Shown one piece after another: positions 164 to 19,100 of a DNA stretch of 64,000 nucleotides (its first letter is position 1; each line of letters begins with the position of its first letter). Made by a program: the position numbers and the translations under genes. The notes under the pieces are model-generated. The model saw only the letters and a program-made list of their open reading frames with translations, had not been told where the DNA came from and did not search any database. The stretch lies in NCBI RefSeq assembly GCF_027947535.2, contig NZ_JAAGKO020000007.1, forward strand, positions 1-64,000, given 5' to 3'. Source of the stretch: Streptantibioticus silvisoli. Lineage in GTDB: Bacteria; Actinomycetota; Actinomycetes; Streptomycetales; Streptomycetaceae.

Positions 164-1417
164 TCAGGGCGCGGCGATCGCGAGGACCGCGTTCTGGCCG
201 CCGAAGCCGCAGGAGGTGCTGACGGCCAGGTCGATCCGGGTCTCCGTCTCGTGGTCGGCGACCTTGATCTCCATCCGGGGGTCGAGCGTTTCCAGGTTCG
301 CGGTCGGCGGCACGACGCCCTGCTGCACCGCCAGGACGGTGAGGACGGCCTCCACCGCGCCGGCGGCGCCCAGCAGGTGACCGGTGACGCCCTTGGTCGA
401 GGTGACCAGCGGGCCGCCGCCGAAGACGCGGTGCAGCATGACCGCCTCGGCGAGGTCGTTGAGCTGGGTGCTGGTGCCGTGGGCGTTGACGTGCTGGACG
501 TCACCGGGACCGGCGCCGGCGTCCAGGAGCGCGGCACGGACGGCGGCCTCGGCGCCGGAGCCGTCGGGGGCGGGTGAGGTGACGTGGTGGGCGTCGGCGG
601 AGGCGCCGTGGCCGATGATCCGGCCGTGGACCCGGGCGCCCCTGGCCCGCGCGTCGGCGGCGCGTTCCAGCACCAGCACCCCGGCGCCCTCGCCGGCCAC
701 GAAGCCGTCGCGGTCGGCGTCGAAGGGGCGGGAGGCGGCCGCCGGGTCGTCCGCCCGGCGGGACAGGGCCCCCATCCGGGCGAAGCCGGCCATCACCAGC
801 GGGGTGATCATCGCCTCGCTGCCGCCGGCCAGCACGATGTCGCACCGGTCCAGGGCCAGCAGGTCCCGGGCGGTGCCGATGGCGGTGGCACCGGAGGCGC
901 AGGCCGTGGCGACCACCAGGTTGGGTCCGCGGGCGCCGAACTGGATGGCGGTCTGACCGGCCATCATGTTCGGCAGCTGCATCGGGAGCAGCAGCGGGGA
1001 GACCTGGTCGGGGCCGTGGTCGCGCAGCCGGTCGTGCTGGCCCTCCACGGTCGCCGGACCGCCGTCGGCGCAGCCCAGGACCACCCCGACCCGGGCGCCG
1101 TCCCAGGTCAGCGGGTCCAGGCCGGCGCCGGCGACCGCCTCGGCCGCCGCGACCAGGGCGAACTGCGTGAAGCGGTCGAGGCGCAGGGCGCGGCGTTCCC
1201 CGAGCAGGGCGCCGGCGTCGAAGCCCGGCACCCGGCAGGAGAACGCGACCGGGCCGCCGGCCAGCAGCGGGTCGGCCGCGGCCGGCGACCGGCCGGCGCG
1301 GACCGCCGCCCAGCTCGCCGCCACCCCGATGCCGCCGGGGGTGACCAGGCCGATGCCGGTGACCGCCACGTCGGTGCCCGCGCGGGCGGCTGCACGGTGA
1401 ACGACGTGAGCGTCCAT
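164..1417 (-). CDS. Beta-ketoacyl-ACP synthase II (FabF/KAS II-like)
   Basis: A 417-residue condensing enzyme that would extend acyl-ACP chains with malonyl-ACP by decarboxylative Claisen condensation. The Cys-His-His triad is visible: Cys in VATACASGA (about residue 170), His in NAHGTSTQLND (about 315) and His in GVTGHLLGAAG (about 345). The length is usual for FabF. No chain-length-factor partner is present, so this is not a classical aromatic type II PKS. The start ATG overlaps the ACP stop by one base (TGATG), which implies translational coupling. It is the last biosynthetic gene of a ten-gene leftward operon with ACP and KAS III. I infer that the three build or extend the alkyl chain of the cluster product. 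Confidence 0.93.
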   Translation of the reverse strand: MDAHVVHRAAARAGTDVAVTGIGLVTPGGIGVAASWAAVRAGRSPAAADPLLAGGPVAFSCRVPGFDAGALLGERRALRLDRFTQFALVAAAEAVAGAGLDPLTWDGARVGVVLGCADGGPATVEGQHDRLRDHGPDQVSPLLLPMQLPNMMAGQTAIQFGARGPNLVVATACASGATAIGTARDLLALDRCDIVLAGGSEAMITPLVMAGFARMGALSRRADDPAAASRPFDADRDGFVAGEGAGVLVLERAADARARGARVHGRIIGHGASADAHHVTSPAPDGSGAEAAVRAALLDAGAGPGDVQHVNAHGTSTQLNDLAEAVMLHRVFGGGPLVTSTKGVTGHLLGAAGAVEAVLTVLAVQQGVVPPTANLETLDPRMEIKVADHETETRIDLAVSTSCGFGGQNAVLAIAAP

Positions 1418-1647
1418 CAGATCTTCGCGCCCCGCTCTTCCATCATGCGGGCCATCTCGCCGACGTTCTCCGCGGCCAGCAGTTCGTCGTCGCTGATGAC
1501 GACGCCCAGTTCGGCCTGGAGGATCATCGACAGCTCGACGACGGCGAGCGAGTCCAGCTCGATGTCCTCCCGGGTGGCCTCGGGAACGATCGACTCGGGG
1601 GTGACCTTCAGCTTGGCCACCAGCAGGTCCTTCAGCTGCTCGAACAT
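1417..1647 (-). CDS. Acyl carrier protein
   Basis: A 76-residue type II ACP that carries growing acyl chains on a phosphopantetheine arm. The attachment serine is Ser33 in the motif ELDSLAVVE, and the flanking acidic helix is typical. The stop shares one base with the start of the downstream KAS II gene. A 166-bp gap separates it from KAS III upstream. Its pairing with KAS II and KAS III suggests a dedicated carrier for chain assembly; a second free-standing ACP lies at 15732 next to the PKS. The family is certain; the partner enzymes are inferred from position. Confidence 0.93.
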   Translation of the reverse strand: MFEQLKDLLVAKLKVTPESIVPEATREDIELDSLAVVELSMILQAELGVVISDDELLAAENVGEMARMMEERGAKI

Positions 1648-1813: not shown

Positions 1814-2827
1814 TCAGGAGGTGGTGAGTTGCGGCCAGCTGAGCGTGGTGGCGCCCCAGGCCAGCCCGCCGCCGAACGCGGTGAGCAGCACCCGGTGGCC
1901 GGCCGACAGCCGGCCCCGCTGTGCCTCCTGGGCCAGCAGCAGCGGCAGGGAGGCGGCGCCGGTGTTGCCGTAGTTCTCGATGTTGGACAGCTGCCGCTCG
2001 GCGGGGATCTCCAGCCGTTCGGCGACCGCCGACAGGATGCGGGCGTTGGCCTGGTGGGCGGCGAAGCGGTCGACGGCCGCCATCGGCCAGCCGGCGAGTT
2101 CGGTGGCGCGCTGCGAGGCGCTGGTCATGTGCTCGACCGCGTGCCGGTAGGTCTCGCGTCCCGCCATCCGGAAGTACCGGCCGTACTCCTCGGCGGGCCG
2201 GCCGCCGGAGCGCTCGCGCGAACCGCCGCCGGGGACCTCGATCAGGTCGCTGAGCCCGCCGTCGCTGCCGAGCACCATCGGGCCGATGGCGCCGGGTTCG
2301 TCCGGCCGGCCGGCGCGCAGCACCACCGCGCCCGCGCCGTCGGCGAAGATCACCGCGGTGGTGCGGTCCTCGGGGTCGATGATGGTGGTGAAGGCGTCGG
2401 CGGCGATCAGCAGGACGGTGTCGGCGAGCCCGGCGGCGATCATCCCGGACGCGGTGGCCAGGCCGTAGAGGAAGCCGGAGCACACCGCCGCGACGTCGAA
2501 GGCCGCCACTCCGCGCAGGCCGAGCCGGGCCGCCACGTCCGGTGCGGTGGCCGGGCAGGGGCGGTCCGGGGTGGTGGTGGCCAGCACCACCGCGTCGGCG
2601 TGGTCGTCGCCCGCGGACTTCAGCGCCCGCAGCCCGGCCTCGACCGCCAGGTCGGACGTCGCGGTGCCGGGGCCGACGACGTGCCGGGCGGCGATGCCGG
2701 TCCGGGTGCGGATCCACTCGTCGGTGGTGTCCAGGCGGGTGGTCAGTTCCGCGTTGGTCACCCGGTTCGGCGGCACGTAGGCGCCGATGCCGGCCAGTAC
2801 GGCCGACCGCGGGGGTGCCGCGGTCAC
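1814..2827 (-). CDS. Beta-ketoacyl-ACP synthase III (FabH-like)
   Basis: A 337-residue KAS III that would start chain assembly from an acyl-CoA and malonyl-ACP, or make a related acyl transfer. The Cys-His-Asn triad is present: Cys116 in AAVCSGFLYGL, His258 in AAHQANARIL and Asn288 in NYGNTGAAS; the C-terminal GGGLAWGATTLSW is typical. The frame stays open far upstream, but the start is the GTG at 2827, which overlaps the diiron-enzyme stop as GTGA. The product is the likely primer-selecting enzyme of the cluster. Cerulenin-type or ester-forming KAS III variants exist, so initiation is inferred rather than shown. Confidence 0.92.
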   Translation of the reverse strand: MTAAPPRSAVLAGIGAYVPPNRVTNAELTTRLDTTDEWIRTRTGIAARHVVGPGTATSDLAVEAGLRALKSAGDDHADAVVLATTTPDRPCPATAPDVAARLGLRGVAAFDVAAVCSGFLYGLATASGMIAAGLADTVLLIAADAFTTIIDPEDRTTAVIFADGAGAVVLRAGRPDEPGAIGPMVLGSDGGLSDLIEVPGGGSRERSGGRPAEEYGRYFRMAGRETYRHAVEHMTSASQRATELAGWPMAAVDRFAAHQANARILSAVAERLEIPAERQLSNIENYGNTGAASLPLLLAQEAQRGRLSAGHRVLLTAFGGGLAWGATTLSWPQLTTS

Positions 2828-3807
2828 GCCGGGTCCTCGGCGGAGGCCAGGACCCCCAGCGGCAGGCCCATGTAGGCCATGCGGACCTCGGCCATCTCGT
2901 CGGTCCACTGCTCGGCCATGTCGTAGCGCTGGTCGGGGGTGGTGTCGAGCATCCGGACGCCGGGCCAGATCTCGTAGTCGCCGATGAGGTCGGCGTGTTC
3001 CTGCATGCCCTTCTGGAACAGCTCCTCGCGGTGGATGACGAACTCCCGGTCGGGCACCTCGTCCCAGAGTTTCACCCCGGCGCGCAGGATCTCCAGCAGC
3101 CGCGGCCGGTACTCGGGGTGGGCGGCCACGTGGTCGCGCAGGATGGTGCTGGCCACCGTCAGGTGGCGGATCTCGTCGATCGCGGTGCCGCGGGAGATCT
3201 CGCCGGTGGCCGGGGACAGCGGGGTCCACTTGCGTTCGCTCAGTTCGGCGGCGGGGGCCAGCACGCCTTCGATGACGATGGCGAAGACGGCGACGCCGCC
3301 GGCGAAGTCGGCCTGGTCGCGCACGATGTCCAAGGTGAAGTCGACCACCGGTTCCAGCACCCGGGCGCGGTAGTCGGCGGCCATCTCGTCGATGTCCCTG
3401 GCCAGCGAGGCGGCCGGCTGCCCGAGTTCGACCAGGTGGTTGCGGAAGACCCGGGCGTGCCGGGCCTCGTCGATGAGCTGGGTGGCGTAGAACTCCATCT
3501 CCGGCAGGCCGGGGGCGAGCGAGACGTAGTGGCCGAGCAGCCGGGTGGCGATCTCCTCCGACAGCCCGCGGAAGCCGAACTCCAGGATCAGCGCGTCGCG
3601 CAGCGGGCCGGGGGCCTTGAGGAAGCCGGGGACGGTGGCGTCGCGGTGGTGGCCGGTCTCGCCGCGGTCGCGCAGGGTGCCCTGGGCCACCGAGGTGAAC
3701 CAGTACGCCAGGTCGCACTCGGCCGGGCCGAGGGTGAGCTCCTTCGCACCGTCGAGCAGGCCGGGCGCCTTGTCCCAGTCCGCCTCGGGGGCAACGTGGT
3801 GGGTCAT
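2824..3807 (-). CDS. Ferritin-like nonheme diiron oxygenase (VlmB-like candidate)
   Basis: A 327-residue all-helical protein with two carboxylate/His metal motifs, DEARH (Glu114, His117) and DEIRH (Glu212, His215), and further candidate ligands such as Glu180. This is the ligand pattern of ribonucleotide-reductase-R2-like diiron proteins, which activate O2. In valanimycin biosynthesis the diiron enzyme VlmB oxidises a hydrazine to an azoxy group; the presence here of a VlmO-like membrane protein, a flavin reductase, and VlmJ-like and VlmK-like genes makes the same role plausible. It could instead be an N-oxygenase of the AurF type or a hydroxylase. The start ATG overlaps nothing upstream in frame but its stop forms GTGA with KAS III, and its ATG sits in an ATGA overlap with the flavin reductase stop. 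The metal motifs are seen; the azoxy role is inferred. Confidence 0.8.
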   Translation of the reverse strand: MTHHVAPEADWDKAPGLLDGAKELTLGPAECDLAYWFTSVAQGTLRDRGETGHHRDATVPGFLKAPGPLRDALILEFGFRGLSEEIATRLLGHYVSLAPGLPEMEFYATQLIDEARHARVFRNHLVELGQPAASLARDIDEMAADYRARVLEPVVDFTLDIVRDQADFAGGVAVFAIVIEGVLAPAAELSERKWTPLSPATGEISRGTAIDEIRHLTVASTILRDHVAAHPEYRPRLLEILRAGVKLWDEVPDREFVIHREELFQKGMQEHADLIGDYEIWPGVRMLDTTPDQRYDMAEQWTDEMAEVRMAYMGLPLGVLASAEDPA

Positions 3808-4403
3808 GGGGCCACCTTTTCCTTCCTGTTGCGGGGGCCGGGCCCGCTGACCGGGGCCGGGCTGAGGGAGCCGGCGAACAGGCCGCCGGTGTAGCTGAGC
3901 AGCGGGTCGCCCTCGCCCACCGAGGCGTGGGTGACCAGGCCGAGCAGCAGCTCGTGGTCGCCGACGGCCGACCGGCCGAAGACCTGGCAGCTGTACGTGG
4001 CGAGCGCGCCGTCCAGCAGCGGCGCGCCCGCGTACGGGTCGTCGTGCCCGGACAGTCCGGCGAACTGGGGCAGGCCGGCCGGCCGGGCCCGGTCGGCGAA
4101 CCAGCGGGCCACGTCCGCCTGCGAGGCGTTGAGCACGTTGACCACGAAGCGGCCCGCCGCGGCGGCCAGTTCGGCGAAGGAGGAGCCGCCGCGCAGCGAG
4201 GCGCCGAGCAGCAGCGGTTCGTGCGAGCAGGTGGTGACGGTACTGACCGTGGTGCCGTGCGGCCGTCCTTCGTGGCAGACGGTCAGGACCGATACCGGGA
4301 CGGCCAGCCGGCGCAGGGCCCGGCGGCGCTGCGCGTCGTCCTGGACGGTGGGTGGCGCGGCGGTCGCGCGGCGGGGCTCGCCGGACCGGTCCACGGCGGT
4401 CAC
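3804..4403 (-). CDS. Flavin reductase (VlmR-like)
   Basis: A 199-residue FMN-binding split-barrel flavin reductase that would supply reduced FMN/FAD to a two-component monooxygenase. Family hallmarks are the start RRRALRRLAVPVSVLTV, the segment HGTTVSTVTTCSHEP and GRFVVNVL followed by a GDHELLLGLV strand close to the C terminus. I chose the GTG at 4403, because it overlaps the stop of the upstream gene as GTGA and the longer upstream frame has no family similarity. The likely partner is the acyl-CoA-dehydrogenase-fold protein at 6838-7977, in the same way that VlmR serves the isobutylamine N-hydroxylase VlmH. The luciferase-like protein at 23603 is a second possible client. Confidence 0.87.
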   Translation of the reverse strand: MTAVDRSGEPRRATAAPPTVQDDAQRRRALRRLAVPVSVLTVCHEGRPHGTTVSTVTTCSHEPLLLGASLRGGSSFAELAAAAGRFVVNVLNASQADVARWFADRARPAGLPQFAGLSGHDDPYAGAPLLDGALATYSCQVFGRSAVGDHELLLGLVTHASVGEGDPLLSYTGGLFAGSLSPAPVSGPGPRNRKEKVAP

Positions 4404-4948
4404 CGCACCGCGTCCTGCTGCGGACGGGCGGTGGCGGCCGGCCGCTTCGCGGCGGGGACGTGGCCGACCGGGGCCGGGTCCGCGGCGTGGCCGACCGGCT
4501 TGGGGTGGGCCACGCCCAGGTCGTCGAGCAGCCGCAGGTAGCCGTGCTGCCGCACCGGTTCGAAGGGCAGCGAGAACGGCTTGAGGAAGTTGCCGAACAG
4601 GCCCCGGTCGCCGAAGAGGTGGAAGGCGATCAGCAGCAGCGCCCATTCCGGCTTCACCAGCCAGCACCACAGGGCGGCGACGGCCCCCTGGGTGAGCAGG
4701 CTGTGCATGACGTTGTACATGACGTAGTACGCCTTGGGGATCGGCGCTCCGCCGCTGCGCCGGAAGGCGATCGCGCCGGGGATGTAGCCGATCAGGTCGA
4801 TGTAGAAGAACAGCACGACGGCCACCCACCAGCGGATCTCGCCCAGGTGGGCGATGATCAGGCCGGTGGTGACGGCCAGCGCGACCAGGTACTCGGCGCG
4901 GTGCAGGGAGTACGTTCTCGGGGTCTCGAACGGGTTGGCCTGGTCCAT
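4400..4948 (-). CDS. Small integral membrane protein (DUF4260/VlmO-like candidate)
   Basis: A 182-residue protein with about four hydrophobic segments (roughly residues 19-34, 40-60, 84-97 and 100-112) and a basic, proline-rich tail. Two conserved-looking motifs stand out: YNVMHSL (78-84) and FHLFGDRGLFG (109-119). They resemble the His and HxxxDRxxGxG-type motifs I associate with DUF4260-type membrane proteins. VlmO, a membrane protein of valanimycin biosynthesis, forms the N-N bond with the help of its pathway partners, and I propose this gene as its counterpart. The start ATG has a good AGGAG site. The stop forms GTGA with the flavin reductase. Membrane topology is visible in the sequence; family membership and role are inferences that a profile search could settle. 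Confidence 0.62.
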   Translation of the reverse strand: MDQANPFETPRTYSLHRAEYLVALAVTTGLIIAHLGEIRWWVAVVLFFYIDLIGYIPGAIAFRRSGGAPIPKAYYVMYNVMHSLLTQGAVAALWCWLVKPEWALLLIAFHLFGDRGLFGNFLKPFSLPFEPVRQHGYLRLLDDLGVAHPKPVGHAADPAPVGHVPAAKRPAATARPQQDAVR

Positions 4949-4998
4949 GGGTGCTCCTGTGGGAGGACGCTTCGGTGAGGGCCGCCGGCCGGACGCGG

Positions 4999-5490
4999 TC
5001 AGCGGGCGACGGTGTCCGGGCGGGCGGGGGCGAACTCGTCGTCGGCCAGCCGGGTGGCGGGGAACTGACCGGTCACCGCCCAGGCGACGGTCTCGCGGAT
5101 GACGCGTTCGGCGATCGGGTCGAGGATGCCTTCGAGGCTGGGGATGCCGAAGTCGAAGTCGGCCTCGAAGCGGACCACGACGTCGTGGTCGTCCTGGCGC
5201 ATCGTCCAGCACCCGGTGAAGGTGTCGAAGTCGCCGTCGGTCTGCTCGAAGCCGATCTCCAGCGCCTGCGGGCGGAAGTCGTCGCGTTCGGTCCAGCGCA
5301 GCAGGCCGCTGCGGAAGTGCAGTTCCCAGCTGGAGCCGCACGTCGCGGCCGGCGGCGCGGCGTGCACGGTGGTGGCGTTGACGTGCGGTGCCAGTCGCGG
5401 GTAGCGCTCCCAGTGGCCCATCGCCTCGTAGACGGTCGCCGCCCGCTCGGCGGGGACCCGGGCTTCCAGTTCGACGTGTCGCATGATCAC
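4999..5490 (-). CDS. SRPBCC (START/Bet v1-like) protein
   Basis: A 163-residue protein of the polyketide cyclase/dehydrase-like SRPBCC superfamily, recognisable from the start RHVELEARVPAERAATVYEAM, the mid segment SSWELHFRSGLLRWTERDDF and the C-terminal helix with LDPIAERVIRETVAWA. Such proteins form a hydrophobic cavity that binds lipids or aromatic intermediates. I chose GTG 5490, which overlaps the aminotransferase stop as GTGA and is six bases from GGAAGG; an in-frame ATG at 5484 is the alternative. No ring-forming chemistry is expected in an alkyl pathway, so it may bind the lipid-like intermediate or stabilise a reactive N-containing species. That role is a guess from context. Confidence 0.8.
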   Translation of the reverse strand: MIMRHVELEARVPAERAATVYEAMGHWERYPRLAPHVNATTVHAAPPAATCGSSWELHFRSGLLRWTERDDFRPQALEIGFEQTDGDFDTFTGCWTMRQDDHDVVVRFEADFDFGIPSLEGILDPIAERVIRETVAWAVTGQFPATRLADDEFAPARPDTVAR

Positions 5491-6770
5491 TTGCCGCCTT
5501 CCGGCATCCGGGCCGAGCCGCGCACGAGGTCGCGGGTGGCCTTGTCGAAGGAGTCGCAGAGGTAGTCGGTCTCGGAGTCGGTCAGGATCGCGGGCGGGGT
5601 GAAGCGCACCACCGCGCTGCCGTTCATCGAGTGGTTGGCGACGACCCCGTGGTTGAACAGTTCGATCAGCAGCTCGCCGGCCAGGCCCGCCTCGGTCAGC
5701 TCGACGCCGATCAGCAGGCCCTGGCCGCGTACCTCCACCACCAGCTCGGGGATGTTGCGGTGGGCGATCTCGGTGATCCTCGGCAGCAGCCGGGCGCCCA
5801 GGTCCTTCGCCCGGGCGACCAGCTGTTCCTCCTTCATCGCGCGGATCGCGCCCTGCACGGCGGCCATCAGCAGCGGCTGGCCGGAGAAGGTCGAGGTGTG
5901 GATGTAGGGGTCCTTGTCGAACGGCCGGAAGGCGGTGCGGGTGGCGACCGCCGCCGAGACCGGCAGCACCCCGCCGCCCAGCGCCTTGCCGGTGAGCAGC
6001 ACGTCGGGCGTGACGCCCTCGGTGTCGACGCCCCACCACTCCCCCAGCCGGCCGAAGCCGGTCTGCACCTCGTCCATGATGAGGAAGCCGCCGTGCGCGC
6101 GGACCAGGGTCTCGACCTGCTTGAGGTAGCCGGGGGGCGGGATGATCACCCCGCCCTCGCCCTGCACCGGTTCGATGATCACGCAGACCTCGCCCGGGTG
6201 GGCGGCCAACTCCGCCTCCAGGGCGGCGGCGTCGCCGAACGGCAGGTGGAGGAAGTCGGGCACCAGCGGCCGGAACGGCTTCTGGTAGACCTCCTTGGCG
6301 GTGGCCGACAGCGCGCCCATCGTCTTGCCGTGGTAGCCGCCGCGCATCGACACGGTGCGCCGGAAGCCGCCCGCGCGGGCCAGTTTCAGCCCGGTCTCCA
6401 CCGCCTCGGCGCCGGACAGCGAGAAGTGCACCCGGTCCAGCGACGGGGGCAGTACCGACACCAGGGCCTCGGCGGCCCGGGCCACGGTCGGCTCCAGCAG
6501 GATGCGGGTGGCGGTGGGGTGGGTGCGCAGCTGCCGCTCCACCTCCTGCAGGACGATCGGGTGCCGGGCGCCCATGATGAACACGCCGTACCCGCCGGCG
6601 TTCAAGAAGCGCTCACCGTCGCCGGTGGTCAGCCAGGCGCCGCTGGAGTACACCTCCATGTGGCTGCCGAACAGCTCGGCCAGGGTGGCCCTTCCCTTGC
6701 TGAGATGGGCCCGGTACAGGCCGAGGATCTCCTGCTCGGTGTCCGCCCCGGCTTCCTCGATCACGGTCAC
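5487..6770 (-). CDS. Class III (omega-type) PLP aminotransferase
   Basis: A 427-residue fold-type I aminotransferase of the ornithine/putrescine aminotransferase class. Landmarks are the PLP lysine Lys262 in LLTGKALGGGVLP, the cofactor Asp in IMDEVQTGFGR (233-238), and SLSGAEAVETGLKLAR near residue 120. Enzymes of this class move an amino group onto aldehydes or ketones, and several acyl-aldehyde aminotransferases of natural-product pathways belong here. With the ALDH-family protein next to it, I infer that it turns a fatty aldehyde into a primary amine for later N-oxidation. The GTG start at 6770 follows GAGGAG by about ten bases. Confidence 0.9.
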   Translation of the reverse strand: MTVIEEAGADTEQEILGLYRAHLSKGRATLAELFGSHMEVYSSGAWLTTGDGERFLNAGGYGVFIMGARHPIVLQEVERQLRTHPTATRILLEPTVARAAEALVSVLPPSLDRVHFSLSGAEAVETGLKLARAGGFRRTVSMRGGYHGKTMGALSATAKEVYQKPFRPLVPDFLHLPFGDAAALEAELAAHPGEVCVIIEPVQGEGGVIIPPPGYLKQVETLVRAHGGFLIMDEVQTGFGRLGEWWGVDTEGVTPDVLLTGKALGGGVLPVSAAVATRTAFRPFDKDPYIHTSTFSGQPLLMAAVQGAIRAMKEEQLVARAKDLGARLLPRITEIAHRNIPELVVEVRGQGLLIGVELTEAGLAGELLIELFNHGVVANHSMNGSAVVRFTPPAILTDSETDYLCDSFDKATRDLVRGSARMPEGGK

Positions 6771-6837: not shown

Positions 6838-7977
6838 TCAGGCCAGTTCCAGCGGGCAGCCGGCGAAGTAGCCCATCAGCGGTTCGGCGCAGGCGGCACG
6901 GGACGGCGGGTGGAAGGCGAGCGCGCGCAGGGCGGCCGCGAGCTGGGAGTGGTCCGGGGAGCTGACGAAGTCCAGTCCGCCGAGCAGTTCCAGCGCCCGG
7001 GAGGCGATCTGCGGGAGGGCGTCCTGCACCGCGAACCGGGCCACCAGCACGGCGGCCACCGCCTCGTCGCCGCGGACGCCGGCCTGCACGGCGCGGGCGG
7101 CGCCCTCCAGCAGCGCCAGCGCGGCCTGCGCCTGCTGGACCAGCGCGGCCCGTTCGGCCGGGATGCCGCGGCCGCCGTCGACGACCGCCTCGACCAGGGC
7201 GCCCGCGGCGCCGACGTAGCCGGCGCAGATCAGCGTCTCGAACCAGATGAACCCGGCCGTCTGCAGGTCGGCCAGCCGGTGCGGGTCCTCGGGGGAGGTG
7301 CGTACGACCATCTCGCGCGGCACGAACACGTCCGCGAGCCGCACCTCGTCGCTCTCCGCGGCGGCCAGCAGGGTGTTGCCCCAGAACGGGTGGACGGTCA
7401 GCCCGGCGGACGGCACCGGGATCAGCGCCAGCGCGAGTTCCGGCTCACCGTTCCGGCCGGGCACCGCGATGCTGGCGGTCAGCAGGTCCATCGAGCCCGA
7501 CAGGCTGCACGGCTTCTTGGTGCCGGTCAGCAGGTAGCCGCCCTCGGCCGCGCGGGCGGTCACCGTGGGCAGCAGGACGTTCTGCTGGGTGCGGCCCTCG
7601 GCCCAGCCGGAGGCCATCACCAGCCCGCCCGGGGCGATCGCGCCCAGCAGGTCGCGCTGCCGCGGGGTGAGCCGGTCGTGCTCGCCGGCCAGCGAGTAGA
7701 GCATCGCGGCGGTGAAGTGGTGCATGCACACGGCGGCGGCCAGCGAGGGCGACAGCGCGCCGATGGCCTGCTGGACCCGGAGCGCGTCCAGCGCGTCCGC
7801 CCCCTGGCCGCCGAACTCCCGCGGCACCAGCAGTCCCGCGCCGCCGTGCTTGCGGAACAGGTCGATCGCCGGGCTGCCGGGCGCCTCCCGCTCGGCGAAC
7901 GGGATCTCGGCGAGCGCTGGCAGCAGCCCCGGGTGGTACCGCTCGCACACGGTGCGGGCTTGGTCGAGGGAGCGCAC
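6838..7977 (-). CDS. Acyl-CoA-dehydrogenase-fold flavoprotein, possible amine N-hydroxylase (VlmH-like)
   Basis: A 379-residue member of the acyl-CoA dehydrogenase superfamily, seen in LVPREFGGQGAD, the FAD-region segment GYLLTGTKKPCSLSGSMD and the C-terminal helical domain ending RALELLGGLDF. The usual C-terminal catalytic-base motif (IYEGT) is absent; the region reads LRALAFHPPSRAACAEP. Loss of this Glu is typical of group D flavin monooxygenases that use this fold, including isobutylamine N-hydroxylase (VlmH), and these need a separate flavin reductase, which is encoded nearby. I infer N-hydroxylation of the alkyl amine. A true dehydrogenase acting on an acyl-ACP remains possible. The GTG start follows a perfect AGGAGG by six bases. 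Confidence 0.8.
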   Translation of the reverse strand: MRSLDQARTVCERYHPGLLPALAEIPFAEREAPGSPAIDLFRKHGGAGLLVPREFGGQGADALDALRVQQAIGALSPSLAAAVCMHHFTAAMLYSLAGEHDRLTPRQRDLLGAIAPGGLVMASGWAEGRTQQNVLLPTVTARAAEGGYLLTGTKKPCSLSGSMDLLTASIAVPGRNGEPELALALIPVPSAGLTVHPFWGNTLLAAAESDEVRLADVFVPREMVVRTSPEDPHRLADLQTAGFIWFETLICAGYVGAAGALVEAVVDGGRGIPAERAALVQQAQAALALLEGAARAVQAGVRGDEAVAAVLVARFAVQDALPQIASRALELLGGLDFVSSPDHSQLAAALRALAFHPPSRAACAEPLMGYFAGCPLELA

Positions 7978-8110: not shown

Positions 8111-9784
8111 CTAGTCGCCGAAGACGGCGCGGTACGGGCTGATGTCGCGGCCGATGCTGACGCCCTGGACGTGCGAGGTGCGCAGCATCGGGTAGTTGGC
8201 CTCGCCGAACGCGCCGCCGGTCAGGCCGGTGCCGCCGTGGCTGGGCAGGTAGGGCAGGAAGCCGATGTGCGAGTCGTTGACCTTCAGCAGGCCGCCGTTG
8301 ACGACGCGGTCCACGAAGAAGTCGATGACGCCGTCCGACCGCGACCACAGCGAGTTGCGCAGGCCGTACTCGTTGCTGTTGACGAAGTCCAGGAAGGCGT
8401 CGAGCAGTTGCTCGTCGGGCGCCTCCTCGGGCACGATCACCGGGATGAGCGGGAAGAAGGTCTCCTCGCGCACCAGGTCGTAGGTGCGGGCCGCGGCCAG
8501 CCCCGTCACCTTGACCACGGTGGGCTCCAGGAAGACGCCGGTCTGCGAGGGCGTGCCGTCGATCTCGGTGCGCCGGCCGCCGGTCACCACCTGCGCCCCG
8601 GCGTCGGTGGCCTGCCGCAGCAGCCGGAAGAAGCGTTCGCTGCGGCGGACCGGGGACAGCAGTACGTCCTCGTCCTCCGGGTAGCCCGGGCGGATGCCGG
8701 CCACCCGCTCCTTGACGGCGGCGAGCAACTCGTCGGCGATCGCCGGGTGCGCCAGCACGTAGTTGGGGACCATGCAGATCTGCCCGGAGCCGTAGAACGC
8801 CTCGGTGACCGCCTCGGCGGCCAGCGGGATGTCGGCGTCGTGCCACACCACCATGCCGTCGTTGCCGGCCAGTTCCAGGATCGGCTTCTTGCCGTGCGCG
8901 ACGCACTCCTGCTCGAACCGCAGTCCCTCCGCGCTGCCGCCGATGTAGAAGATGTCGTCGATCAGCGGGCTGGCGACCCAGCGGTCCATGGTCTGCTTGG
9001 GGTTGCTGCACACCGCGTTGAGGGTGCCGGGCGGCGCCCCGAGTTCGTCCAGCAGCGGCGCGACCACGTCACGCATCAGCCACATGGTGCTCAGCGCGAT
9101 GCTGCGCGGGGCCCGCATGACGACGGCGTTGCCGGCCATCAGGCACAGGACGGCGAGGGCGGCGCTGGGCAGCGGGGCGTTCTGCGGGGGGTTGAAGGCG
9201 ACCACGCCGTCCGGCTGGCGGCGCACGATCAGCCGCCGGTCGCCGTGCCGGAACTCGGTGTGCATCTGCCGGCGGTACCAGCCCAGGCTCTCCTCGCTGT
9301 AGATCTGCAGCAGGCAGCTCAGCTCCCAGCGGGCCAGCTTGGCGGGGTGCGCCTCGTCGGTGAGCATCCGCAGGAACTCCGCCGACCGGCGGACCAGTTC
9401 CTGCCGGAACCGGGTGCCGAGCCGCATCCGGTGGTCCAGCGGCAGCGCCGCCCAGCCGGGCGCGGCGGCCGCCGCGGCCTCGGTGGCCAGGTCGATCATG
9501 CCGTCGCCGGCGACCGCGCAGCGCCCCACCACGTACGGGTGGCCGGCCTGCGGGGAGTCGGGGTCGCGTTCGAGCGAGCGCTTGAGGGAGACGCTGGTGA
9601 AGACGTCCTCCAGGAGCGCGCGGCCGCTGACGGTGTAGACCCAGCCGTCACCGTCGAGGTCCTTGCCGGCGATGTACAGCGGGTAGCTGCGGGTGGGTGC
9701 GGCATCGGGCCTGCCGTCCGGTGCCGCCGCACAGCGGCCGGGGCGCGGGGGCGTGCTCTCCCCGGTGGTTCCGTCGAGCAGCAT
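8111..9784 (-). CDS. Aldehyde dehydrogenase superfamily protein
   Basis: A 557-residue ALDH-superfamily enzyme with catalytic Cys337 in YGSGQICMVPN and the general-base position Glu304 in LELAGND. FNPPQNAPLPSAAL marks the cofactor-binding N-terminal domain. It is longer than a standard ALDH by about 60 residues at the N terminus. The frame is open to 11029, but the ATG at 9784 has AAGG six bases upstream and begins the family similarity. In this cluster it may reduce an acyl thioester to an aldehyde for the aminotransferase, or oxidise an aldehyde; both reactions are known in the superfamily and the sequence alone does not decide. It is the first gene of the leftward operon. Confidence 0.88.
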   Translation of the reverse strand: MLLDGTTGESTPPRPGRCAAAPDGRPDAAPTRSYPLYIAGKDLDGDGWVYTVSGRALLEDVFTSVSLKRSLERDPDSPQAGHPYVVGRCAVAGDGMIDLATEAAAAAAPGWAALPLDHRMRLGTRFRQELVRRSAEFLRMLTDEAHPAKLARWELSCLLQIYSEESLGWYRRQMHTEFRHGDRRLIVRRQPDGVVAFNPPQNAPLPSAALAVLCLMAGNAVVMRAPRSIALSTMWLMRDVVAPLLDELGAPPGTLNAVCSNPKQTMDRWVASPLIDDIFYIGGSAEGLRFEQECVAHGKKPILELAGNDGMVVWHDADIPLAAEAVTEAFYGSGQICMVPNYVLAHPAIADELLAAVKERVAGIRPGYPEDEDVLLSPVRRSERFFRLLRQATDAGAQVVTGGRRTEIDGTPSQTGVFLEPTVVKVTGLAAARTYDLVREETFFPLIPVIVPEEAPDEQLLDAFLDFVNSNEYGLRNSLWSRSDGVIDFFVDRVVNGGLLKVNDSHIGFLPYLPSHGGTGLTGGAFGEANYPMLRTSHVQGVSIGRDISPYRAVFGD

Positions 9785-12609: not shown

Positions 12610-14091
12610 CTATCGCAGGCTCGCCTCCAGCCAGTCGGCCAGCGTGTCCGGGTCCATCGATCCGATGTCCGGCGCCGCCCGTGCCACGTCCTCGGCGCCG
12701 CCGAGCGAGACGAACTTCTCCCGGGTCAGTTCCGCGTGCCGGGCGCGGGTGTCGGGCCCGGCCGCGCCGATCGGCACCAGCCGCTCGCGGACCTCGGTAC
12801 GGCCGTCCCGCATCCGCACGGTGACCCGCGCCGGCGTCGCCTTCGTCGCGTCGCGGAAGTCGCCGGGCGCCGGGGCCGCGCCGGCGGCATCGTCCCGTCC
12901 CCGGGCGAGTTCCTCCGTACGCGGGCCGCCGAACGCCCGCAGCCACGGCCCCGCGGCGGCGCCGGCCTGCCGCACCGCCTCCCCGAACGGCGCCACCGAG
13001 CCGAACAGCGCCCGGGTGAAGTCCTCGTCGTGGCGCAGGACGACCCGCTCGGCGAGCTTCCAGCGGTCGGCGCGGTCGAGCAGCGGCGCGTCGAAGTCGT
13101 CCACCGTGAGGCCGCCGGTGAGCAGCGCGGTCGCCACCGGGTAGGGGGTGTGCAGGACCAGCGCGCCGAGGGGGGCGCCGGGTCCGGTGACGTACGGCTC
13201 GGCGGCACGGCCTGCGTACAGGGTGTAGAGCGACGCCTCCACGACCACGTCCGCCACGTCCTGCTCGCGCAACGGGCCCAGCGCGCCGTGCAGTTCGATG
13301 GCGCAGTCCACGGCGGCGTCGATGCCGGGGCCGCCCGGTCGGACCTTGAAGGAGAGCGTCCGGGTGTACCAGCGCGTTCCCAGCCCGTCGTCGACGGCGC
13401 CGGGCAGCGGGACGGAGGCGAAGCGGGACAGGAACCCGTCCGGGTGGTCGAGGATGTCGGGCGCCCCGCGCAGTCCGGCCGCCGCGGCGTCGCAGGCGTC
13501 CATGGCGGTACGCACCGGGGCGAAGGCGTTGAACAGCCGCGCGTCGCTGGCCAGGAAGGCCCGCATCAGCGGCCAGGCCGGCATCGCGAAGGCCAGCCCC
13601 AGCGCGTCCGTCCAGCGGGCGGCCGGCGCGCCCTGGCAGGCCAGCCGGCCCGCGACGCCGCCCGCCAGGTGGGTGTGCACCGCGCTCTGGCCGCGCAACG
13701 GGCCCAAGGTGGCCGCCGCGGTGATCCGGGCGGCGCACTCGTTGGCCGCCACCACGGCGGTGATCAGCGCGGCGCCGTCCAGCCCGCCGGCCCGGGCGTA
13801 GGCCAGCGGCACCGCCACCGTGGAGTTGGACAGGTGGCCCGCGTAAGCGGTGTCGTCCAGATTCAGCCAGGACCCGAGCCCGGCCAGCACGCAGGCGCCG
13901 ATGCGCGGGGCGGCCTGCCACGGTCCGCCGAACGCGGCCACCAGGCGCCGGCCGAGCGGATGGTGGACACCGGCCCGGATCGAACCGAGCTGGGAGAGCA
14001 CCTGGCTGGTGGCGAGCGCGCGCACCGGGTCGGGGATGTCACCGTGCTCCAGACCCGAGGCCCACTCGGCGAGTGCTTCCAGCGCGGTCAT
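12610..14091 (-). CDS. MmgE/PrpD-family protein (VlmK-like candidate)
   Basis: A 493-residue protein of the MmgE/PrpD (2-methylcitrate dehydratase) superfamily, recognisable from LNLDDTAYAGHLSNSTVAVPLA, the C-terminal domain with GTRWYTRTLSFKVRPGG and the closing MDPDTLADWLEASLR. In primary metabolism such enzymes dehydrate methylcitrate. In valanimycin biosynthesis the PrpD-like VlmK catalyses the last step, elimination of phosphate from the product of the kinase VlmJ. Here it lies one small frame downstream of a DAG-kinase-like gene, exactly the partner expected for VlmJ, which is my main reason for the call. The ATG start forms ATGA with the preceding frame and is served by GAGGAG. Confidence 0.88.
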   Translation of the reverse strand: MTALEALAEWASGLEHGDIPDPVRALATSQVLSQLGSIRAGVHHPLGRRLVAAFGGPWQAAPRIGACVLAGLGSWLNLDDTAYAGHLSNSTVAVPLAYARAGGLDGAALITAVVAANECAARITAAATLGPLRGQSAVHTHLAGGVAGRLACQGAPAARWTDALGLAFAMPAWPLMRAFLASDARLFNAFAPVRTAMDACDAAAAGLRGAPDILDHPDGFLSRFASVPLPGAVDDGLGTRWYTRTLSFKVRPGGPGIDAAVDCAIELHGALGPLREQDVADVVVEASLYTLYAGRAAEPYVTGPGAPLGALVLHTPYPVATALLTGGLTVDDFDAPLLDRADRWKLAERVVLRHDEDFTRALFGSVAPFGEAVRQAGAAAGPWLRAFGGPRTEELARGRDDAAGAAPAPGDFRDATKATPARVTVRMRDGRTEVRERLVPIGAAGPDTRARHAELTREKFVSLGGAEDVARAAPDIGSMDPDTLADWLEASLR

Positions 14092-14427: not shown

Positions 14428-15396
14428 TCAGACCACCGCCTGGTCGAACACCGCCGCGCCCCAGGCGGTGAGCGCGCCGGGCAGTACCTCCAGCGTCATG
14501 CGGGGGCCCGTCAGCGGCTGGAGTTCGCCGTCGTGCTCGAAGCGGAGGGGTTCGCCGTCCAGCCGTTCGACGACGATCCGCCGGCCGCGCCCGTAGGCCA
14601 CGCCGGGCAGCGTCACGTGCTCGGCGTGCCGGGTCAGCTCCGGCACCCGGGTGGGCGCCACCTCGCCGCCCACCACGCAGACGTCGAGCAGGCCGTCGTC
14701 GGGTACGGAGTGCGGCAGCACCAGGAACTCGCCGCCCCGGTAGCGGCCGCCGCCGACGTTGGCCAGCACGGTCGGGCCCTCGTGCAGCACCTGGCCGTCG
14801 ACGGTGACCCGGCCCGGATAGGGCGTGAACGCCTCGGCGGTGCGCTGGAAGGCCGCCGCGTAGCGTTGCCGGCCGGTCAGCGGGATGCTCCGGGCGGTGA
14901 CCAGGGCCTCGGCGATGACGCCCGAGCAGGCCCCGAGGAAGACCTTCGCGCCGGTCTCCGCCAGCCGGGCCAGATCCAGCCCGCGCAGCCGTGCCGCGCC
15001 GGACGGCTCCCCCGCCGCGCCCAGCACCGCGAGCAGCGCCGCACGCCAGGGGCGCTCCCCCCACAGCATCCGGTACCCGGAGTTGCCGGTGCCGGCGGGC
15101 ACGATGAACAGCGCGGCGGTGCTGCCCGCCAGCCCCTCGACGACCTCGCGGACCGTGCCGTCGCCGCCGACGGCCACCACCAGATCGGGCGGCGCGGCCG
15201 GACCGGCCCCCGAGCACGCCTGCCGGACCTGGCGGACGGCGTCGCCCTGCCGGGTCGTCAGGTGCAGGCGCACCCCGGGCAGCCGGCTGCGGCACAGGGC
15301 GGCCACCTCCTCGATCAGCTGTGGACCGGTGGTGCCCGCCGTGGGGTTGGCGATGATCAGCGCGTGCTGCGGCGACGCGGTGCCCGGTTCGGCCAT
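14428..15396 (-). CDS. Diacylglycerol-kinase-like protein (VlmJ-like candidate)
   Basis: A 322-residue member of the diacylglycerol/sphingosine kinase superfamily: the phosphate-binding loop VVAVGGDGTVREV (GGDGT at 77-81), PAGTGNSGYRMLWG and the C-terminal DGELQPLTGP strand are visible. Most relatives phosphorylate lipid hydroxyl groups with ATP. VlmJ of the valanimycin pathway belongs to this superfamily and phosphorylates valanimycin hydrate before elimination by VlmK. Its position upstream of a PrpD-like gene, in a cluster with other valanimycin-type genes, supports the same job here. A lipid kinase role cannot be excluded from sequence alone. It is divergent from the ACP/PKS unit. Confidence 0.86.
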   Translation of the reverse strand: MAEPGTASPQHALIIANPTAGTTGPQLIEEVAALCRSRLPGVRLHLTTRQGDAVRQVRQACSGAGPAAPPDLVVAVGGDGTVREVVEGLAGSTAALFIVPAGTGNSGYRMLWGERPWRAALLAVLGAAGEPSGAARLRGLDLARLAETGAKVFLGACSGVIAEALVTARSIPLTGRQRYAAAFQRTAEAFTPYPGRVTVDGQVLHEGPTVLANVGGGRYRGGEFLVLPHSVPDDGLLDVCVVGGEVAPTRVPELTRHAEHVTLPGVAYGRGRRIVVERLDGEPLRFEHDGELQPLTGPRMTLEVLPGALTAWGAAVFDQAVV

Positions 15397-16168: not shown

Positions 16169-19100
16169 ATGCCGCGTGAGACCGTGGAACCGCTGGAGCG
16201 CGCCGAGGACGTGGGGAACGCCGAGGAGAGCGTCGAACGGCTGCTGCTGGAGAAGTACGAGCCGATAGCCGTCGTCGGCATGGGCCTGCGCTTCCCGGGG
16301 GGCTGCGACACCCCCGAGTCCTTCGAGGAGTTCCTGCGCGAGGGCCGGTCCGGCATCAGGCCGCTGCCGCAGGACCGCTGGGACGCACAGCGGTTCGTCC
16401 CGCAGGGGCCCGACGACAAGGGGCGTATCCGCACCTCGGGCGGCGGGTTCCTGGACCGGATCGACCTGTTCGACGCGCCGTTCTTCAACATCTCCCCCAA
16501 GGAGGCGCAGTACATCGACCCCCAGCAGCGGATGCTGCTGGAGACCGCGTGGCACGCGCTGGAGGACGCCAACATCGACCCGGCGCGGCTGCGGCGCGGC
16601 AACGGCGGTGTCTACGTCGGCGCCAGCTCCATCGACTACGCCCTGGAGCTGGACACCCTGCCGTACGAGGAGCTGGACGGGCACCTCGCCTCCGGCATCA
16701 CCCTCTTCCCGCTGTCGGGGCGGCTGTCGTACTTCCTGGGCTGGCGCGGTCCGAGCGTCAGTGTGGACACCGCCTGCTCCTCCTCGCTGTGCGCGCTGCA
16801 CATGGCGGTGCAGGGGCTGCGCCGCGGCGAGTGCGACATCGCGCTGGCCGGCGGCGTCAACGCGCTGCACAGCCCGCGGATCATGGTGATGTTCTCGCAC
16901 GGCCGGATGCTCGCCCCGGACGGGCTGTGCAAGACCTTCGACGACGCGGCCGACGGCTACGTTCGGGCCGAGGGCTGCGGGATGGTGGTGCTCAAGCGGC
17001 TGTCGGACGCCGAGCGGGACGGCGACACCGTGCTGGCCCTGGTGCGCGGCACCGCGATCGGGCAGGACGGCGACAGCGCGGGCCTGACGGTTCCCAACGG
17101 GCCGGCCCAGGAACTGACGATCCGCAGGGCGCTGGCCGCGAGCCGGCTGACGCCCGGCGACATCCAGTACGTGGAGGCGCACGGCACCGGTACGCCGCTG
17201 GGCGACCCGATCGAACTGGGCGCCATCAGCGACGTGTTCGCCCGGTCGCACACCCGGCAGCGTCCGGTGCTGGTCGGTTCGGTCAAGACCAACCTCGGGC
17301 ACATGGAGCCGGCCTCCGGGATCGTCGGGGTGATCAAGTCGGTGCTCCAGTTGCGCGGCGCCACCGTCTACCCGCACCTGAACCTCACCGTTCCCTCCAC
17401 CCGCATCCCCTGGGACAACCTGCCGGTCAGCGTGCCCACCCGGTGCGTGGCGTGGCCGGGCGAAGGGACGCGGCGGGCGGTGGTCAACAGCTTCGGCTTC
17501 GCCGGCACCATCGCGGCCGCCGTCCTGGAGCAGGCGCCGGACCGGCCGCTCGCCCCGGCGCCCGGCGAGGACCTGCCGGCGCTCGGCCTGTTCACCGTCT
17601 CCGGCAAGAACGAGCCGGCGCTGCGCGCGCAGATCGAGACCTACCGGCGTCATCTGGAGGAGCGTCCGAACGCCGACATCGCGCGGCTGTGCTACACCGC
17701 CAACGTCGGCCGCTCGCACTTCGCGCACCGGCTGGCCGGCCCGGTGACCGACCGCGCCTCGCTGCTGAGGCTGCTGGACGCCGGCCCGGCCGGGCTAAAG
17801 CCGGCCGCATCCCAGCCCCGCAAGACCGGTTTCCTCTTCAGCGGCCAGGGCAGCCAGTACGCCGGGATGGGCGCGGACCTCTACCGGGCGTTCCCGGTCT
17901 TCCGCGACCAGGTGGACGCGTGCGACCGGCTGTTCGCCGCGCACCTGCCGGTGTCGGTCAGGAGCCTGCTGCTGGCCGGCGACCGGCCGGGGGTCGCCGG
18001 CGGCGACCCGGTGGACCGCGCCCTGATCGACCGCACCGAGTACACCCAGCCCGCCCTGTTCACCCTGGAGTACGCCCTCGCGCGGCTGTGGATGTCGTGG
18101 GGGGTGCGGCCGAGCGTGCTGATCGGGCACAGCATCGGCGAGGTGACGGCGGCGGCGGTCGCCGGACTGTTCAGCCTGCAGGACGCGGTCACCCTGGTGG
18201 CGGTGCGCGGCCGGCTGATGCAGTCGGTGACCGAGCCCGGCGGCATGGTGGCGGTCGGCGCGCCGGCCGCCGAGGTGGAGCCGCTGATCGCGCGGTACCC
18301 GGGGCTGGCGCTGGCCGGGGTCAACGCGCCGGCGCAGTGCGTGGTCTCCGGAGCGCGCGAACCGCTGGAGAAGCTGGCCGCGCGGCTGCGGGAGGACGGT
18401 CTGCGGGCCGAACCGCTGGCCGTCTCGCACGCCTTCCACTCGCCGCTGATGGCGGAGGTGTTCGAGGAGTTCCGGGCGGCCATCGCGGACATCACGTTCC
18501 GGCAGCCGTCGATCGCGATGGTGTCGAACATCAGCGGCAAGGTGGCCCGGTTCGCGCAGATCGCCACCCCCGACTACTGGGTGCGGCACATCGGCGAACC
18601 GGTGCGGTTCCTCGACGGCATCCGGGCGGTCGCCCAGCGCGGCCGGCACGTCCTGGTCGAGGTGGGCCCCTCCAGCGCGCTGACCGCGCTGGCCCGCCAG
18701 TGCCTGCCGGTCGAGGACCACGTGTGGATCACCAGCCTGCGCCGCCGTGCCGCGGGCACGGGCGCCGGCACCGTGCTGCGCGGCCTCGCCGACCTGTACG
18801 GCGCCGGGCTCGCGGTGGACTGGCCGGGGGTGCACCGCGGCCGTGAGCTGCGCACCGTGCCGCTGCCCGGCTACGCCTTCCAGCGCCGCCGGCACTGGCT
18901 GCCGTCCACCGCGACGGCCGGCGGCGGCACCGGTTCCGGGCCGGCCGTCCACCCGCTGCTGGGCCGCGAGACGACCGCCGCCGCCGGGCCCGACGCGGGT
19001 ACGGCGCCCGCGTCGGCGACCCGCGAGTTCGTCACCGAGCTGACCTGCGGCTCGCCCGCCTGGCCGGCCGGGGTGACGGGCCCGGACGGCGTGCCGGTGC

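Follow-up and report, generated by a model that had tools for sequence, protein, structure and literature searches.

The 182-residue protein encoded at positions 4400–4948 of the window (the whole stretch of 64,000 nt of Streptantibioticus silvisoli DNA that was analysed) is very probably an orthologue of VlmO. As judged from characterised homologues, it would be a small, membrane-bound enzyme that probably depends on iron and acts in the biosynthesis of an azoxy natural product. VlmO was characterised in vitro and is reported in PMC11705231 as the membrane-bound enzyme that makes the hydrazine intermediate of valanimycin. The same source describes its residues D51, H82, H110, and D114 as essential by site-directed mutagenesis and as probably iron-binding. 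The window protein has these residues at the same positions, as compared by the residue numbers given for characterised VlmO in PMC11705231. The assignment was made because of this identical numbering, the gene context, and the match of the partner protein to a "Putative VlmB homolog". An earlier note on this DNA had proposed an N-N bond-forming function. Considering the gene context and the invariant residues, this proposal is very likely correct, with the activity deduced from homologues.

The VlmO-type gene and its neighbourhood

The open reading frame is real and intact, with the coordinates that had been noted before. It starts with ATG at 4948, ends with TGA at 4402–4400 on the minus strand (182 codons), and has a strong codon score, with a GC3 of 0.97. 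A comparison of its first 165 codons with the orthologue at locus L021 showed 19, 10, and 40 mismatches at codon positions 1, 2, and 3, respectively, which indicates purifying selection. An antisense ORF (4352–4978, plus strand) was dismissed as a gene, because the opposite, strongly coding frame was chosen by the gene model.

The stop codon of the VlmO-type gene overlaps the start of the flavin reductase gene in the motif GTGA (4400–4403), and the stop codon of the reductase gene overlaps the start of the diiron gene in the motif ATGA (3804–3807). The translational coupling to both genes, as claimed earlier, was confirmed by these overlaps. The first of them is a recurrent feature: among 62 homologous loci with a reductase gene, the VlmO stop is part of a 4-nt ATGA or GTGA in 60.

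From 9784 to 164, the minus strand encodes the aldehyde dehydrogenase, VlmH, aminotransferase, SRPBCC, VlmO, VlmR, VlmB, KAS III, ACP, and KAS II types in this order (Table 1), so that VlmO, VlmB, VlmR, and VlmH types belong to one operon-like run. The diiron protein, which is the partner of VlmO, had the "Putative VlmB homolog" (6d9f/8wvr) as its sole PDB match and is a close relative of it over 314 residues. The SRPBCC gene is usually located directly upstream of the VlmO gene in VlmB-type loci, and it occurs in the FAD-oxidoreductase branch described below as well. A role of the SRPBCC protein in azoxy biosynthesis was not found in the literature excerpts consulted.

Table 1. Features of the azoxy gene set in the window and on contig C77.
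Feature	Position	Strand	Basis and remarks
VlmO-type membrane N-N bond-forming enzyme (putative)	4400..4948	-	182 aa; D51, H82, H110, D114, R115
VlmR-type flavin reductase	3804..4403	-	Pfam Flavin_Reduct E 1.5e-32; start overlaps VlmO stop
VlmB-type diiron oxygenase	2824..3807	-	phmmer PDB 6d9f/8wvr "Putative VlmB homolog" E 1.1e-121; weak AurF
SRPBCC / polyketide cyclase-like protein	4999..5490	-	PF03364 E 7e-17
Class III aminotransferase (amine supply)	5487..6770	-	PF00202 E 4.9e-82
VlmH-type flavin N-hydroxylase (acyl-CoA dehydrogenase-like)	6838..7977	-	PF02771; DszC-like PDB matches
Aldehyde dehydrogenase-family protein, probably aldehyde supply	8111..9784	-	PF00171 E 3.7e-57
Ketoacyl-ACP synthase III-like	1814..2827	-	PF08541/PF08545
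Acyl carrier protein	1417..1647	-	PF00550
Ketoacyl-ACP synthase II-like	164..1417	-	PF00109/PF02801; contig end just beyond
VlmK-type MmgE/PrpD-family lyase	12610..14091	-	PF03972/PF19305; Vlm role as given in PMC9379638
VlmJ-type kinase (diacylglycerol kinase-like/YegS_C)	14428..15396	-	PF00781/PF19279; Vlm role as given in PMC9379638
VlmA-type tRNA-dependent transferase	C77:55816-56712		PF09924; 74% identical to VlmA type of intact G335 cluster
VlmL (SerRS) type	C77:60557-61858		Contig of 63483 bases

The azoxy gene set is divided between contigs C98 and C77. The window starts with the first base of C98, and the VlmA and VlmL types, a desaturase, and transporters are encoded on C77. Together, both contigs encode every gene of the pathway order proposed below. 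An amino-acid permease gene is present at the end of C77 by the VlmA/VlmL orthologues, and MFS transporters are encoded both in the window and on C77. In genome G335, the whole orthologous set is found unbroken in one place, with SerRS directly beside KAS II. Plasmid pSA3239 of S. lavendulae also harbors an unbroken set (VlmA, VlmH, VlmO, VlmR, "VlmB-like protein", APC permease, and SerRS). Based on the unbroken order in these two cases, C77 and C98 very probably abut; we infer a single unbroken cluster for this genome, in which VlmA and VlmL were assembled apart from VlmO. C98 and C77 also carry one each of two similar type I PKS genes (16169–21931 on the plus strand of the window, and L020:1-3955 on C77), which are 58% identical over 1336 aligned positions.

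Conserved residues and the relation to DUF4260

D51, H82, H110, D114, and also R115 were invariant in 84 of 84 relatives. All five residues lie outside of the peptide patterns used in our scan, with H82 adjacent to one of them. His82, His110, and Asp114-Arg115 were thus found at the positions named in the earlier note and conserved across homologues, while the fourth key residue besides His82, His110, and Asp114, namely Asp51, had been missed. AlphaFold predicted five helices within residues 10–118 and another one at 135–144, with pLDDT values of 77–97 in ten-residue blocks for residues 11–120 and an overall mean of 73.9. Comparison of this AlphaFold model to solved structures gave no match at E ≤ 0.001. 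A search for sequence relatives of VlmO in the PDB resulted only in chance matches (E 0.5 or more).

A comparison to the DUF4260 profile had been suggested as a check. The window protein scored 18.9 bits against Pfam DUF4260 (PF14079), under the gathering cut-off of 27; a weak DUF4260 similarity was likewise published for the VlmO relative Ady6 (PMC9379638). In the profile-profile comparison by hhalign, the VlmO family and DUF4260 were homologous (prob 93.7, E 2e-7) with the D, YN..H, and H...DR motifs aligned, and DUF4260 served as homologous outgroup. The two differ by an insertion between the D and YN..H motifs, and the tree split the VlmO clade, including the window protein, from the sampled DUF4260 proteins with a support of 100/100. 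The D, H, H, D, and R residues were retained in all of the sampled ordinary DUF4260 proteins (6/6). As these proteins have no known link to N-N bonds, the motif alone is no proof of N-N chemistry, and the earlier reading needs the correction that the motifs are not specific to such chemistry. The tetrad marks a shared site, and functional specificity comes from the gene context. Kinship to the YdjM/DUF457 (PF04307) membrane hydrolases, considered by motif resemblance, was rejected (hhalign prob 0.2, E 0.31, motifs unaligned).

Other functions of the window protein were weighed against these data. A small, membrane-bound protein that is nearly always encoded beside the enzymes of the cascade might be a non-catalytic anchor or scaffold keeping VlmR, VlmB, and VlmA near lipid-like substrates, with the N-N bond being formed elsewhere or spontaneously. 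The invariance of D51, H82, H110, D114, and R115 argues against such a role, as does the VlmO mutagenesis, for which PMC11705231 reports that all four residues were essential, and we consider it very improbable. It is still less probable that a general DUF4260-type membrane metalloprotein with another reaction, e.g., a hydrolase or oxidase, was recruited to the cluster: the weak profile match and the common tetrad would fit, but the protein falls inside the VlmO clade, apart from the sampled DUF4260 proteins, and its score remains below the 27-bit cut-off. An integral membrane protein within a biosynthetic cluster may also function in export or self-resistance. Transporters of ordinary families (MFS) are, however, present as well, and the conserved polar tetrad together with the published role of VlmO points elsewhere, so that we give hardly any weight to this explanation.

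Proposed pathway

For the VlmO orthologue, the characterised homologues, as presented in PMC11705231, suggest the order amine, hydroxylamine, O-seryl hydroxylamine, hydrazine, azoxy group, and dehydration. The aldehyde dehydrogenase and the aminotransferase would provide an aliphatic amine, which would be converted to a hydroxylamine through N-hydroxylation by the VlmH/VlmR-type enzymes. The hydroxylamine would be esterified with serine from seryl-tRNA by the VlmA-type transferase, with participation of the VlmL type (both encoded on C77). VlmO would then rearrange the O-aminoacyl hydroxylamine to an N,N'-disubstituted hydrazine: the amino-acid nitrogen would attack the hydroxylamine nitrogen and the carboxylate would be displaced, the details of the attack following the usual reading of such rearrangements. 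A four-electron oxidation by VlmB would convert the hydrazine to the azoxy group, and the serine side chain may be dehydrated by VlmJ and VlmK.

The window protein shares D51, H82, H110, and D114 at the same positions and its nature as a membrane protein with VlmO of the valanimycin system (Q84F35, E4N6B1) and the relatives KaO, ElaO, AzdO, and Ady6. The genes also cluster with VlmA, VlmB, VlmH, and VlmR types, here additionally with VlmJ, VlmK, and VlmL types. In contrast to the valanimycin system, the cluster of the window comprises aminotransferase, aldehyde dehydrogenase, KAS II/III, ACP, and SRPBCC genes, which suggests that the amine side chain is probably not the isobutyl group of valanimycin. 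Jietacin-, elaiomycin-, or maniwamycin-like products were considered as candidates. An analogous rearrangement of O-aminoacyl hydroxylamines to hydrazines is described in PMC11705231 for the Cupin/MetRS hydrazine synthetases ForJ and PyrN, while these are soluble zinc cupins and reported there to lack homology to VlmO.

Distribution of VlmO-type genes and loci without VlmB

The scan with peptide patterns, including one genome per species, revealed 181 related stretches in named genomes, and the best 80 of these were read. VlmB and VlmH types were each present nearby, within the fetched flanks, in 77 of these 80 loci, and the SRPBCC gene in 73. In two of the three loci without nearby VlmB, the protein is encoded elsewhere in the genome; the third locus is located at a contig end, in a genome without VlmB match. 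The commonest gene orders among the best 80 comprised aldehyde dehydrogenase, VlmH, aminotransferase, SRPBCC, VlmO, VlmR, VlmB, KAS III, KAS II, and SerRS. Thus, the close homologues belong to N-N (azoxy-type) gene sets and keep the motif residues invariant, which is the opposite of the pattern that the earlier note had named as refuting its proposal.

A profile search, which was independent of the peptide patterns, found the VlmO family in 40 of 249 sampled Streptomycetaceae genomes (~16%). Other actinobacteria gave single-protein matches with E-values between 1e-3 and 1e-2, which were short, weak, or stop-containing and not counted. With this frequency, and with VlmO already characterised in vitro (PMC11705231), the family is not rare, unlike what had been assumed, and the window protein is an ordinary VlmO-type protein rather than a divergent member.

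VlmB was present in 29 and absent in 10 of the 39 other VlmO-bearing Streptomycetaceae genomes. Of 20 listed genomes without VlmO, 1 had a VlmB-like match. All nine VlmB-less loci not truncated at a contig end harbor a DAO-type FAD oxidoreductase gene, as does the second VlmO locus of G335. In the tree, the label VlmB-less/FAD oxidoreductase required two changes, with L186 grouping apart from the others. A CAR-like reductase is encoded in all complete VlmB-less Streptomycetaceae loci except L186, and a WS/DGAT-like gene was found in six of the VlmB-less Streptomycetaceae loci. VlmO loci without VlmB are predicted to give N-N products of another oxidation state, and they possibly represent a second pathway of VlmO that leads to a distinct N-N product.

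The VlmB-less loci, which retain VlmA and VlmH, are L023, L024, L178, and L180-L186 from Streptomycetaceae and L191 (12001-15956) from a plasmid of Paraburkholderia phymatum, which also has the DAO-type FAD oxidoreductase. A VlmO relative with 35% identity and the full tetrad is encoded on plasmid p1 of Pseudoalteromonas rhizosphaerae (L192:12001-12438), adjoining genes for an MMPL transporter and an outer-membrane lipoprotein-sorting protein. No VlmA, VlmB, VlmH, or VlmR types were found around it in the fetched 22 kb.

VlmO could represent a specialised branch of a far wider DUF4260 family of small membrane metalloenzymes, which would all use the same Asp-His-His-Asp site for branch-specific chemistries, with the VlmB-less FAD oxidoreductase branch leading to a non-azoxy N-N product. 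We consider this conceivable, if slightly on the unlikely side. The window protein is already explained by the described VlmO family. The catalytic residues of VlmO are common to DUF4260, a family without assigned function, which is a caution of wider value. With the window, a further azoxy biosynthetic cluster is well supported for the Streptomycetaceae, and the strong conservation of the VlmO residues and of the gene coupling is confirmed.
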